NCBI GenBank assembly: GCA_017554665.1
Contig: JAFZHX010000024.1
Location: 1 to 33,873, forward strand
Direction: 5' to 3'
DNA: 33,873 nt
Origin: Alphaproteobacteria bacterium
GTDB lineage: Bacteria; Pseudomonadota; Alphaproteobacteria; Rs-D84
Shown: positions 27,072-32,580 of the stretch, one piece after another
Layout: the number at the start of each line of letters is the position of its first letter
How positions within the stretch are numbered: position 1 is the first letter of the stretch
Notes under the pieces: model-generated
The model's database searches: none
What the model was told of the DNA's origin: nothing
The model's input: the letters and a program-made list of their open reading frames with translations, nothing else
Translations under genes and position numbers: made by a program

Positions 27072-27091
27072 TGTGTTTGTTTTTTTCCGCT

Positions 27092-27120
27092 TTACTAGTT
27101 TGTCAAAAAATCGTATAATA
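27092..27120 (+). promoter_or_regulatory. Promoter of the OmpA-like lipoprotein gene
   Basis: TTTACT (27092-27097), a 17-base spacer and TATAAT (27115-27120), continuing as ATGCTTAATAAA, similar to the element at nifJ and tyrS. Confidence 0.65.
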
Positions 27121-27147
27121 TGCTTAATAAAAAGAAGGATAGGGCAG

Positions 27148-28806
27148 ATGAAAAATAAATCTTGCGTTGCAACTTGGGCTGTATCTCGCTTAATGATGAT
27201 GACTGGTGTTGTTGCATTAGCAGCTTGTAGCCAAGGTAATATGGGACAATATACAGGACCAGTAGCAACTCCGACGGTCGATTATGTTGAAGCGTTGGAT
27301 GTTTATTCTGCACCACACAAAGATTCTTTCTTGAATCAGTTGGCTATGAACTATCGTTCTTATGCTATTTATAATGCACGTACTAGCGGTTATTCAGAAA
27401 TGGGTGAATTGTTTGCAAACAAGGCTGTGGCTGCATTTTCTGGCGAAACACCTTTCCCAGAAGTTTTAGATAACTGGCCAGTTGAAAACGAACAAGAAGC
27501 TTTTGAACTGTATAATGCATATAATGATTTGATTGAACAATTAAAGAATGATGCAACTTATGCAAATCCAGAACTGGCTGCAGAAGCACAAGCAAAGTTT
27601 GATTGCTGGTTGTCTGCAACTGCAAGCGGACAAGTCGCAACAGCACAACAATGTCGCGAAAGATATAATAAAGCTATTGCTGCTTTGCGTGATTGTCATG
27701 GTGGAAAAATTGTAAAAAAACAACAAGAAGTAAAAAAATGCACTTCAGAAGAATGCACTACAACAGTCGAGACTGTTACAGCTACTGCAGAAGTGCAACA
27801 GACTTACTATCCAGACACTCGTAATATGATGGTTGTTCGTGGTGATGCACGCGAAGGTGTTATTATTGTTAATAATGTAAATGTTCCAGAACATTTGATA
27901 AAGCCTGTTCCTGTTCAACCATTGGTGTTTAATCAAAATATCTATGGTGGCGATAAGACAATCAATAAAACAAAGAAAACATCTCCTGGTGGCATTGTTG
28001 TAGTTGCTGAAACACAAACAGATTGTCCTGCATGTAAAAATGATTGTGAAAAATGTCAGAAATGTCCTGCAGAAAAAGAATGTCAAGAATGCCAAAAATG
28101 TCAGGAATGTCAGCAGTGTCCAGATTGTACAGTGCATCCTATTGTAGATTTACCAACAGAAAATTTGCCTGCTTTAGAACAGCCTGCGGTTGTAGAACAA
28201 CCTGTGATTCCTCAGATTGGTGATGAATTGGTTTCTCGTGAAGAATTTATCAATATGATGATGGCAATGCGTTCCGAGCTGGCCGCAATCAATGCTCGTT
28301 TGGACGAATTACAGGCTGCTTCTGGTGAAAAAACAATGATTAAGGTTCAACAGATTCCTTTGGAGCCAAAACAGCATGTTATGGAAGAAGTGTTTGAAGT
28401 AAGATTTGATTTTAATAAATCTATTATTAAACCTGAATATCAAGAGCTGATTAAGAAGTTGGCTTCTGCAACACAGGAAAATAAAAATATTAAAGTTTCT
28501 GTGGTCGGTCATACAGATACAACTGGTTCAAGTAATTATAACTATGCTTTGGGTGGACGTCGCGCAGAAGCTGTTCAGAAGATGCTGATTGAATACGGTA
28601 TCCCATCAAGTCAGATTGTTGCTGTGTCTGCTGGTGAAGAAGATTTAGCAGTTCCTACTCCTGATAACACACCAAATGCGGCAAATCGTCGTGTGCGTGT
28701 TGTCAAAGAAGTTCACTCTACAGAACCTGCAAGGCCTGTGCCAGTTGAGCTAACGGTCGAAGAAGTTTCTGTTGAGGGGTGCGGTGAGAAAGGTTGTAAT
28801 CGATAA
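27148..28806 (+). CDS. OmpA-family lipoprotein with an 11-cysteine cluster
   Basis: A 552-residue outer membrane lipoprotein (lipobox LAAC). The N-terminal half is helical and Ala/Glu-rich. Residues 293-327 hold eleven cysteines mostly spaced C-x2-C (KCQECQKCQECQQCPDC), an odd insert for this family. A short helix (about 370-395) precedes the C-terminal OmpA peptidoglycan-binding domain (about 410-525), with VRFDFNKS, VVGHTDTTGSSNYN, GRRAEAVQKML and NRRVRVV; the peptidoglycan-contacting Asp and Arg are present. It should tether the outer membrane to the cell wall. The ATG at 27148 follows AAGGATAGGG; a start 75 bases upstream would read through the promoter. Confidence 0.88.
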   Translation: MKNKSCVATWAVSRLMMMTGVVALAACSQGNMGQYTGPVATPTVDYVEALDVYSAPHKDSFLNQLAMNYRSYAIYNARTSGYSEMGELFANKAVAAFSGETPFPEVLDNWPVENEQEAFELYNAYNDLIEQLKNDATYANPELAAEAQAKFDCWLSATASGQVATAQQCRERYNKAIAALRDCHGGKIVKKQQEVKKCTSEECTTTVETVTATAEVQQTYYPDTRNMMVVRGDAREGVIIVNNVNVPEHLIKPVPVQPLVFNQNIYGGDKTINKTKKTSPGGIVVVAETQTDCPACKNDCEKCQKCPAEKECQECQKCQECQQCPDCTVHPIVDLPTENLPALEQPAVVEQPVIPQIGDELVSREEFINMMMAMRSELAAINARLDELQAASGEKTMIKVQQIPLEPKQHVMEEVFEVRFDFNKSIIKPEYQELIKKLASATQENKNIKVSVVGHTDTTGSSNYNYALGGRRAEAVQKMLIEYGIPSSQIVAVSAGEEDLAVPTPDNTPNAANRRVRVVKEVHSTEPARPVPVELTVEEVSVEGCGEKGCNR

Positions 28807-30073: not shown

Positions 30074-31342
30074 ATGCATATTAATGAACTAAAGGCTAAA
30101 TCGCCACAGCAGTTGCTGAAAATGGCAGAAGATATGGGTATTGAAAATCCATCACAGTTAAATGTACAACAGTTGCGTTTCGCTGTTATGCGTGTATTCG
30201 CAGCAGATAAAAAAGTTGTATTGATTGGTGATGGTGTTTTGGAACGTATGCAGGATGGTTTTGGTTTCTTGCGTGCGCCAGAATCTAATTATTTGGCAGG
30301 ACCAGATGATTTATATGTGTCTCCAAATTTAATTAAAAAGTATGGCTTGAAGACAGGTGATTATGTCGAAGGTCAAATTCAAGCTCCACAAAATGAATCT
30401 GAACGCTATTTCGCGTTGGAAACAATTGAACGCGTTAATGGTGATTTGCCAGAAAAATTAAAGCATCGTGTGTCTTTTGATGATATGACACCTTTGTATC
30501 CTGATGAAATGCTGAAAATGGAAGTGCCAGACGATAAAGATAAAGGTCGTAATTTGTCCGCGCGTGTTATCGATTTAATTTCTCCTACTGGTAAAGGTCA
30601 GCGTTCTTTGATTGTTGCACCTCCTCGTACTGGTAAGACAGTTATGTTGCAGAATATAGCTCATAGTATCGCGACAAATTATCCTGATGTTAAGTTGATT
30701 GTATTGTTGATTGACGAACGTCCAGAAGAAGTTACAGATATGCAACGCAGTGTAAAAGGTGAAGTTATTTCTTCTACTTTTGATGAACCGGCTGCGCGCC
30801 ATATCCAAGTTGCAGAAATGGTTATTGAAAAAGCTAAACGCTTGGTCGAAGCAGGGCAGGATGTTGTTATTTTGCTGGATTCTATTACTCGTTTAGGTCG
30901 TGCATATAACACATGTGTTCCTTCCAGTGGTAAGGTTTTGACTGGTGGTGTTGATGCTTATGCTTTACAACGCCCAAAACGCTTTTTCGGTGCTGCACGT
31001 AATATCGAAGGCGGTGGTTCCTTGACTATTATTGCTACTGCATTGGTTGATACAGGCTCCAAGATGGACGAAGTTATCTTTGAAGAATTTAAAGGTACTG
31101 GTAACAGCGAAATTATCTTGGATAGAAAGCTGTCTGACAAGCGTGTGTATCCTGCTATTGATATTACAAAGTCTGGCACACGTAAAGAAGACTTGTTGGT
31201 TGGTAAAGAAATTCTATCAAAAATGTATGTCTTGCGTCGTATTATCAATCCAATGGGAACATTGGAAGCAATGGAATTCTTGTTGGATAAGTTGCGCCTG
31301 ACAAAAACAAATGATGATTTCTTTTCATCAATGAATCAGTAA
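30074..31342 (+). CDS. rho: Transcription termination factor Rho
   Basis: Hexameric RNA-dependent ATPase that releases transcripts. The 422-residue protein has the usual order: N-terminal helical domain (1-45), cold-shock RNA-binding domain (about 52-120, [18 protein letters not shown]) and the ATPase core. The core holds the P-loop APPRTGKT (182-189), [30 protein letters not shown], the Q-loop segment near [15 protein letters not shown], and the R-loop. The length is standard. The ATG follows AAAGGAAAAA. It is a single gene between its own promoter and terminator. The window has at least fifteen intrinsic terminators as well, so Rho probably acts mainly on untranslated RNA. Confidence 0.98.
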
Positions 31343-31346
31343 AATT

Positions 31347-31372
31347 AAATCCCGCTTGTTGCGGGATTTTTT
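31347..31372 (+). terminator. Terminator of rho
   Basis: AAATCCCGC-TTGTT-GCGGGATTT hairpin then T run; it ends about ten bases before the next ATG. Confidence 0.85.
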
Positions 31373-31383
31373 ATAGGGAAAAT

Positions 31384-31611
31384 ATGAGTAAAATATATTT
31401 TGTTTTAGCGGTGTTTGCCGCTTTGTTTTTTGCGTATTTGGCTGGTATTAGTAAAGGTGTGCAAAAATGTCAGAAAGATGTAGCGTATAACAATGTTAAA
31501 CAACAAATGGAATTAATACAGGCAAAGGAACAAGTAAATGCAGAAACAGTTACTGTTGGGACTGGTGTTATTCGTGAGCGCTTGTACCAGAAATATACCA
31601 TCGCAGACTAG
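31384..31611 (+). CDS. Small membrane-anchored protein, inner-spanin-like
   Basis: A 75-residue protein with one N-terminal hydrophobic segment (about 4-22) and a charged, helical periplasmic part (KCQKDVAYNNVKQQMELIQA, then RERLYQKYTIAD). A second gene, in another frame, starts inside its 3' third and encodes a lipoprotein. Membrane-anchored helix plus overlapping lipoprotein is the layout of phage Rz/Rz1 spanins, which fuse inner and outer membranes in lysis. The protein is shorter than typical Rz (about 150 residues) and I see no sequence proof of homology. TAGGGA precedes the ATG. The rho terminator ends ten bases upstream, leaving no room for an ordinary promoter between them. Confidence 0.6.
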   Translation: MSKIYFVLAVFAALFFAYLAGISKGVQKCQKDVAYNNVKQQMELIQAKEQVNAETVTVGTGVIRERLYQKYTIAD

Positions 31612-31729
31612 TTCGTGCGCAAAAATTGCTTGTGTGCCGATATATGGGCGCGCTAATGACTGGAAGGTTATTAGTGATGATTTGGCGCGAAATATCTATC
31701 GGCATAATAAGTTGTGCGAGTGCTTGTAA
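31538..31729 (+). CDS. Small lipoprotein overlapping the preceding gene, outer-spanin-like
   Basis: A 63-residue lipoprotein in the +1 frame relative to the gene at 31384, overlapping it by 74 bases. The signal peptide ends in lipobox VSAC with lipidated C16. The mature part is 48 residues with four more cysteines (27, 32, 60, 62), and carries NDWKVISDDLARNIYRHN. An AAAGGA site lies eight bases before the ATG, inside the upstream gene, which supports real translation. The layout is that of Rz1, but the mature part is not especially Pro-rich. Its last 34 bases overlap the end of the convergent arginase-family gene. Confidence 0.65.
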   Translation: MQKQLLLGLVLFVSACTRNIPSQTSSCAKIACVPIYGRANDWKVISDDLARNIYRHNKLCECL

Positions 31730-32580
31730 AAATTGTATTTGCCTTTTTCTTGATATAGAATATTAATCAAACTTTGAGCTATTTGTCTGCTTTTTTGATT
31801 GCCCGTTGGCGAGTATTCAACAAATTCAAAGCTGTATGCATCACGAAATGACTTTACTAGCTTTTTTGCCATTGGAAAAGTTATACCACCAGATTCAGGA
31901 ACCAAGACATCGGAAAAATATTTTGGGTCAATTGCATCAAAATCAAAAGAAACGATATATGGGCGACTGCCAATTTGTTGGCGGATAGAGTGTATTATAT
32001 TATCTAGGTCAGATGATTTTTTTATGTCTTTGTCAAAATTTATATTTATGTTTTGCTTTAATGCATATTCTTTTTCTGCAGGCTCAAACGAGCGGGTTGC
32101 AATGTAAAATAAATTCTCGGGGTGCAGTACAGGGCATCGTCGTGGTAATCCTAACCATCGGCTATCTCCTTCGCCTAGTAGTGCGCGGACATTGGTGCCG
32201 TGTGGTGCGCCAGATGCTTCTTGCTTTGATGAGTCTGGTGTGTGTAGGTCTAGATGAGCATCTATATAGACCAAACATAAGTCATCTGTGTTTAAATGGT
32301 CTGCGATTGCAGCAAAGTGACCAAAATTCACAGAATGGTCGCCACCAATCATAATATGCTGTATGTATGGTGTTTGTTTGTAAATTTTCTGCTGAATTTT
32401 ATAATTTTCACCAAATCTGTCGTTCGTAATTTCTAAGATGTTTAACGGATCTGGGGTTACAATCGTCCAATCCCCCTTAGGAAACATAGATTGTATAACA
32501 CGAGGAGCTAGTGCAGGTCCTGCAATGTTTATGTTTTTAGTTGCACCACGACCATATTCGATACCAAGAAACTTTGTCAT
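31696..32580 (-). CDS. Arginase/agmatinase (ureohydrolase) family enzyme
   Basis: A 294-residue cytoplasmic enzyme of the ureohydrolase fold, using a two-manganese centre to split a guanidino or related C-N bond. All metal ligands are visible: H82 in GGDHS, D107, H109 and D111 in DAHLDLH, and D213 and D215 in SFDFDAIDP. H127 in HGTN fits the catalytic histidine. The substrate cannot be read from sequence: arginine, agmatine, formiminoglutamate and others share this core, and the usual VExNP segment reads VEYSP. The start overlaps the stop of the upstream exported-protein gene by four bases (ATGA). Its 3' end overlaps the small lipoprotein gene on the other strand, and no terminator is visible between them. 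Confidence 0.88.
   Translation of the reverse strand: MTKFLGIEYGRGATKNINIAGPALAPRVIQSMFPKGDWTIVTPDPLNILEITNDRFGENYKIQQKIYKQTPYIQHIMIGGDHSVNFGHFAAIADHLNTDDLCLVYIDAHLDLHTPDSSKQEASGAPHGTNVRALLGEGDSRWLGLPRRCPVLHPENLFYIATRSFEPAEKEYALKQNININFDKDIKKSSDLDNIIHSIRQQIGSRPYIVSFDFDAIDPKYFSDVLVPESGGITFPMAKKLVKSFRDAYSFEFVEYSPTGNQKSRQIAQSLINILYQEKGKYNFYKHSHNLLCR

Follow-up and report, generated by a model that had tools for sequence, protein, structure and literature searches.

What a spanin-like gene pair does in a bacterial chromosome, away from phage genes, is the question raised by a locus between rho and an arginase-family gene in the stretch of DNA analysed here (33,873 nt, hereafter the window), which comes from an alphaproteobacterium of the order Rs-D84. 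Spanins are known phage lysis proteins. The initial annotation had described a helical protein with one transmembrane (TM) segment whose gene overlaps, in another frame, that of a lipoprotein with its own ribosome site. It proposed either a domesticated lysis module or an unrelated linker of the inner and outer membranes. Both open reading frames and the ribosome site were found; they are listed here with their neighbours.

30074..31342, + strand: rho, the conserved upstream neighbour
31348..31372, + strand: intrinsic-terminator-like hairpin with T-run, directly 5' of the i-spanin gene
31384..31611, + strand: i-spanin, 75 aa, with an N-terminal TM segment (about residues 5-21) and a periplasmic helix, predicted from the sequence, phrog_1026 and AlphaFold2
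31526..31530, + strand: AAGGA ribosome site of the o-spanin gene, within the i-spanin gene, read directly from the sequence
31538..31611, + strand: two-frame (+1) overlap, 74 nt, of constant length across the family
31538..31729, + strand: o-spanin, 63 aa lipoprotein with lipobox FVSA/C and Cys16, predicted from the sequence and phrog_1275
31696..32580, - strand: arginase-family gene, convergent, a frequent downstream neighbour

The o-spanin ATG lies 7 nt downstream of the AAGGA site, and the 3' end of the gene overlaps the 3' end of the arginase-family gene in antisense over 34 nt. The AlphaFold2 models of both proteins consist of short helices at moderate confidence, that of the i-spanin showing one long helix (residues 2-57) plus another over residues 60-72 and that of the o-spanin a helix over residues 47-62. 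The N-terminal TM segment and the helical periplasmic part of the i-spanin are kept in 53 genomes. Its conserved features include a near-invariant Cys29 and a C-terminal motif of consensus DIRRxLREKYTIAE; the window version, VIRERLYQKYTIAD, has drifted, with VIRE in place of DIRR. In the o-spanin, the lipobox reads FVSAC in the window and IFVASC in most relatives, the Cys being invariant, and the conserved pattern is C..C.PIYGRA.DW..ISDDLARNIYRHN..CE.

The overlap proved to be conserved: its length is 74 nt without exception in the 79 named relatives having both genes. With a cruder choice of start codon, 74 nt was counted in 48 of 54 genus genomes. The exceptions mostly reflect the called start codon; in two, the i-spanin stop has really moved, by one codon or by four. 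Five genomes of the sister genera have the 74-nt overlap, and a sixth has it likewise with an inner ATG. The entropy of the overlap columns is about half that of the flanking columns on either side and is nearly flat over the codon positions (0.76/0.67/0.83 bits, versus 1.50/1.41/1.58 bits upstream). Such low and nearly equal values fit constraint on both frames. Constraint in the i-spanin frame is weak except in the TM segment, the Cys and the C-terminal motif, and the part of the gene read in this frame only has a dN/dS of 0.81, a value made hard to read by near-saturated pairs. The overlapping pair is real and not a product of chance.

A Pfam search with both window proteins gave no match. 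Against the PHROGs profiles, the i-spanin matched phrog_1026 (Rz-like spanin, E 3.2e-7) and the o-spanin phrog_1275 (Rz-like spanin, E 1.5e-5), which upholds the proposed likeness for both halves. When 41 relatives were scanned singly, phrog_1275 was matched by 41 of 41 o-spanins (best 5.7e-9) and phrog_1026 by 23 of 41 i-spanins (best 1.5e-8). The features of a two-component spanin are present, namely a TM i-spanin, a lipobox o-spanin, overlapping genes and a spanin-family match. The pair sits outside any phage lysis cassette, which is the usual setting and not part of the structural definition; its neighbours are rho and host genes. It can be assigned with strong confidence to the two-component spanins of the overlapped type, and bridging to and disruption of the outer membrane is its predicted role. 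As in the overlapped spanins of the phage P2 type (PMC6139136), the i-spanin has a TM segment, there are periplasmic cysteines, the proteins fall in PHROG spanin families, and the lipoprotein o-spanin starts inside the i-spanin gene (+1) and extends past its end. Unlike the P2-type genes, the pair belongs to the core genes of a bacterial family, lies beside rho outside a lysis cassette and keeps one overlap length over sister genera. The type of pair is already known; it is unusual in being part of the core of a whole family and in lying apart from phage genes.

No close relatives of either spanin were present in the viral contigs searched, and the best phage matches had E values above 0.5. 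Escherichia phages CharmingMan and Fostie resemble the pair in having short Rz-like spanins after holin and endolysin, in Fostie as two overlapping genes right after these. The likeness is remote (about 32-36% identity, E 0.6-3, the Fostie o-spanin being a weak tblastn match to the window o-spanin at E about 3), and the phage spanins differ in lying inside the lysis cassette.

Relatives are labelled Candidatus Enterousia, gut Alphaproteobacteria that PMC12306168 assigns to the order Rs-D84; the window genome is 0.78 Mb and 78% complete. BLAST on 59 genus genomes gave strong matches to the o-spanin in 54 and to the i-spanin in 53, at one place each. Of 201 genomes of the order, 159 gave a match to an o-spanin profile, every one of them within a single family: 145 of the 156 genomes of the genus Ca. 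Enterousia and 14 in sister genera, in single copy except in one genome. When 84,980 species genomes were scanned, the best 80 of 155 matches were gut Alphaproteobacteria, Enterousia or termite-gut 'Rickettsiales' MAGs. Genus-wide, the location is between rho and an arginase/'duf' gene pair, with occasional insertions. The same overlapping layout occurs in six sister-genus genomes, three of them with rho adjacency, and in a few sister-genus genomes the o-spanin was not seen beside rho. The protein distances of both spanins track those of host genes, with r 0.65 and a permutation p of 0.0005, the lowest value that the test can give. Vertical inheritance, synteny and the fixed overlap together exclude a recent prophage. 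The case for a chromosomally domesticated, vertically inherited pair is strong on these comparisons, as had been proposed, lysis being the predicted function. A spanin pair has become a core gene in a family whose genomes are mostly 0.7-1.1 Mb, most dispensable genes having been lost.

The earlier remark that no phage gene is visible nearby stands for the window, in which none was recognised among the open reading frames scanned with Pfam; it does not extend to the rest of the chromosome, where these genomes carry a conserved particle cluster. An HK97-type, RcGTA-like gene transfer agent (GTA) was rejected, PF05065 and PF04860 being found in 0 of 59 genomes. PF03237 gave a weak match in 52 of 59 genomes, to a truncated terminase with viral-looking neighbouring genes. 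In the complete genome G100, a T7-like particle locus was found at 906-919 kb, with the following parts.

Portal: PF12236, 3e-83
Capsid: podovirus-type, PF19821, 3e-73
Scaffold: T7-type, PF05396, 1.5e-9
Terminase, ATPase half: phrog_38, 2e-44
Terminase, nuclease half: separate open reading frame upstream of the portal gene
Tail protein: phrog_376, 6e-80
gp14-like protein: weak match
Endolysin: SleB/Hydrolase_2-type, phrog_938, 1.4e-5 (6e-8 to 2e-7 in other genomes)
Holin-like candidate: small hydrophobic protein beside the endolysin, proposed from TM topology

The two terminase halves are parted by dnaB, an XRE-type regulator and a 237-aa gene on the opposite strand (G100 908028-912834, L246), and this split layout is identical in the genus genomes checked. 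A small open reading frame with Lys/Ala/Pro repeats, resembling histone H1, also lies within the cluster (G100 916853-917260). By reading, the G100 cluster region contains no integrase or phage replication gene, dnaB being the only candidate and host-looking. Gene order is constant in the 20 genus genomes sampled (L305 in part). Of the 201 genomes of the order, 178 have the capsid gene, and they cover 22 of 23 genera; other families of the order have clusters sharing most parts. The spanin pair pointed the analysis to this order-wide particle locus of the podovirus type. The capsid is under purifying selection, with a dN/dS of about 0.09 from near-saturated pairs, and particle-gene distances correlate with those of host genes (r 0.69-0.84). 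Instead of the sporadic insertion of an ordinary prophage, both the pair and the cluster are fixed in place genus-wide. The nearest phage capsids are those of MT838907.1 (5 kb, human faeces, unannotated), at 63%, and of Pelagibacter phage Hodr, at 44%. MT838907.1 (L313) carries a portal, a scaffold and the capsid 63% identical to that of Enterousia, and may be either a fragment packaged by a GTA or a related phage.

The cluster is probably a vertically inherited, podovirus-derived, GTA-like element, judging from its gene content and inheritance. In G100, the particle cluster, a tail-fibre-like gene and the spanins are at separate loci. Among the characters by which GTAs are recognised (PMC9662315), endogenisation, often at several loci, was found, as were vertical inheritance and co-diversification with the host, the latter two from the synteny in 20 genus genomes, the order-wide capsid gene and the distance correlation. 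The same paper also lists particles filled with random host DNA, a head size that prevents packaging of the whole GTA genome, and delivery of the packaged DNA to other cells. The RcGTA-type agents of Alphaproteobacteria (Rhodogtaviriformidae, PMC9662315) are alike in having phage-derived genes at several loci, vertical inheritance and lysis for release. They differ from the T7-like podovirus module of Enterousia, which has a PF19821 capsid and a PF12236 portal, PF05065 and PF04860 being absent from the genus genomes searched. FpGTA of Faecalibacterium (PMC12946183), also from a gut bacterium, is likewise GTA-like with a probably podovirus-like particle, and has holin and endolysin in separate operons; its host is Gram-positive, and it accordingly has neither an outer membrane to cross nor a spanin. 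DNA packaging has been shown for FpGTA and is a prediction for the Enterousia element. The Caulobacter GTA (PMC13236601) shares an alphaproteobacterial host and lysis genes outside the particle cluster; there, LypABC is an immune-type lysis hub, whereas the Enterousia set is of the phage type (holin-like protein, endolysin and spanin). Among the titles and abstracts found on Enterousia, or on Rs-D84 with phage, none reports such an element, and PMC12306168 names no phage, capsid or gene transfer.

Particle release from a Gram-negative cell requires an outer-membrane step. A wall enzyme and a holin-like protein are encoded in the cluster; no spanin was seen in the Enterousia clusters examined, and the pair beside rho is a candidate for that step. 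The explanation judged probable is that the domesticated spanin pair supplies the outer-membrane lysis step for the podovirus-derived GTA-like element. Once the particle genes are on, the small TM protein would open the inner membrane and the SleB-type enzyme would then cut the wall. The spanin pair, held in the inner and outer membranes, would fuse or tear the outer membrane, and the particles, probably a gene transfer agent, would escape. As a weaker part of this scheme, the spanins and the particle operon would both stand behind intrinsic terminators and be expressed through read-through.

Among 53 genus genomes, 35 have a terminator-like hairpin at most 45 nt 5' of the start of the i-spanin gene; as a baseline, 53 of 839 genes in G100 have a hairpin within 45 nt. 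In the window, no room for a promoter is left between the hairpin and the i-spanin start, and the gene is therefore probably expressed by read-through. The spanin hairpin may in part be just the terminator of rho itself. With a limit of 100 nt, the endolysin gene is preceded by a hairpin in 19 of 19 cases and the capsid gene in 15 of 20. In most sampled genomes, the region upstream of the endolysin gene (L288-L307) contains a promoter-like element, TTGACTTTT...TGATATTAT, followed by terminator-like hairpins. This arrangement before the particle operon looks like antitermination control, a mode reported for the Bartonella GTA according to a title cited in PMC13236601. The hairpins suggest that terminator read-through may be a mode of control common to the spanins and the particle operon.

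The functional link between the spanins and the cluster seems probable, with the position of the pair outside the cluster speaking against it. In families f2-f6 of the order, the particle cluster is retained without any recognisable spanin, and a scan for a lipobox and an overlapping TM protein found no spanin-like pair near the clusters of other families. The genome G012 has an intact cluster and has apparently lost the spanin. Within the genus, with incomplete genomes left aside, spanin and capsid show only a weak tendency to be present or absent together; co-loss was discarded as proof of linkage, the cases being too few and confounded by incomplete genomes. The broadest proposal is that Rs-D84 has a functional, vertically inherited GTA that arose from a T7-like podovirus before the present families, the spanins of one family being set apart behind rho and expressed, as the particle operon seems to be, by terminator read-through. 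Its chances fall slightly short of even. A working GTA would show a way in which DNA can still pass between gut bacteria that are so reduced and probably depend on partners, and two very small proteins would allow a direct test of how it is released.

The cluster of the window genome itself (L315, G000:C35, 3850-12202) is decayed. The portal is reduced to 103 of 407 aa, the scaffold is frameshifted, the terminase is truncated and joined to another gene, and the tail or virion genes tail573 and o115 are gone; the capsid gene is intact. The flanking host genes dnaB, xre336 and birA are whole, which makes decay likelier than an error in the MAG assembly, itself a possible cause. Both spanin frames are open in this genome. 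Spanins that are intact where the cluster is broken, and that lie outside it, are what would be seen if the domesticated pair lysed cells for a purpose unrelated to particles, such as setting free toxins or surface proteins, or altruistic lysis, with another wall enzyme. T4-type lysozyme genes occur in many genus genomes and could be cited for such a role, but they are patchy, in differing contexts and broken in the window genome, and conservation of lysis-type genes throughout the genus was seen only within the particle cluster. Lysis unconnected with particles is accordingly considered unlikely. The PF00959 lysozymes were rejected as partner of the spanins for the same patchiness, varied context and breakage in the window genome. 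Among these T4-type lysozymes (L276-L281; G000:C33:22786-23135), one is fused to a phage-head-like domain and some lie beside a transpeptidase-like open reading frame.

The persistence of the pair without a working particle in the window genome could also reflect a spanin-derived, non-lytic envelope linker or membrane-fusion device, serving for instance to release vesicles or to touch a partner cell. A dependence on partners has been proposed for Rs-D84 bacteria (PMC12306168), and the o-spanin head ISDDLARNIYRHN is strongly conserved. Against this, both halves match spanin families in a canonical overlapped layout, and a terminator directly before the genes is not suggestive of steady expression; a non-lytic device has a low probability. 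The match of both halves to spanin families also speaks against the alternative first offered, a linker unrelated to spanins. A remnant or moron of an ordinary prophage beside rho would account for proteins of phage origin, but it is already contradicted by synteny and distribution: place and overlap are constant over the genus and in sister genera, the genes co-diversify with the host, and no related viral contig was found, leaving it very improbable. A chance overlap or annotation artefact, conceivable for such short open reading frames, is contradicted by the 74 nt fixed in 79 of 79 named relatives and by family-level homology of both proteins, and its probability is negligible. The supply of an outer-membrane step to the GTA-like element is the preferred reading.

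The surroundings of the pair are variable in places. Inspection by eye of the open reading frames in the insertions between rho, the spanins and the arginase-family gene recognised none as a lysis gene; they encode a large secreted protein rich in repeats, small secreted proteins, an ABC transporter-like protein and a protein of 308-322 aa. The repeat-rich secreted protein, of 777-873 aa, lies between rho and the spanins in some species (L088 2349-4964, L092 2590-4923, L093 5436-8057), and a similar start follows rho in G012 (L258). On the other side of rho, the window contains a large lipoprotein-like open reading frame with a C-terminal OmpA domain (27073-28806, PF00691), conserved 5' of rho in several relatives.
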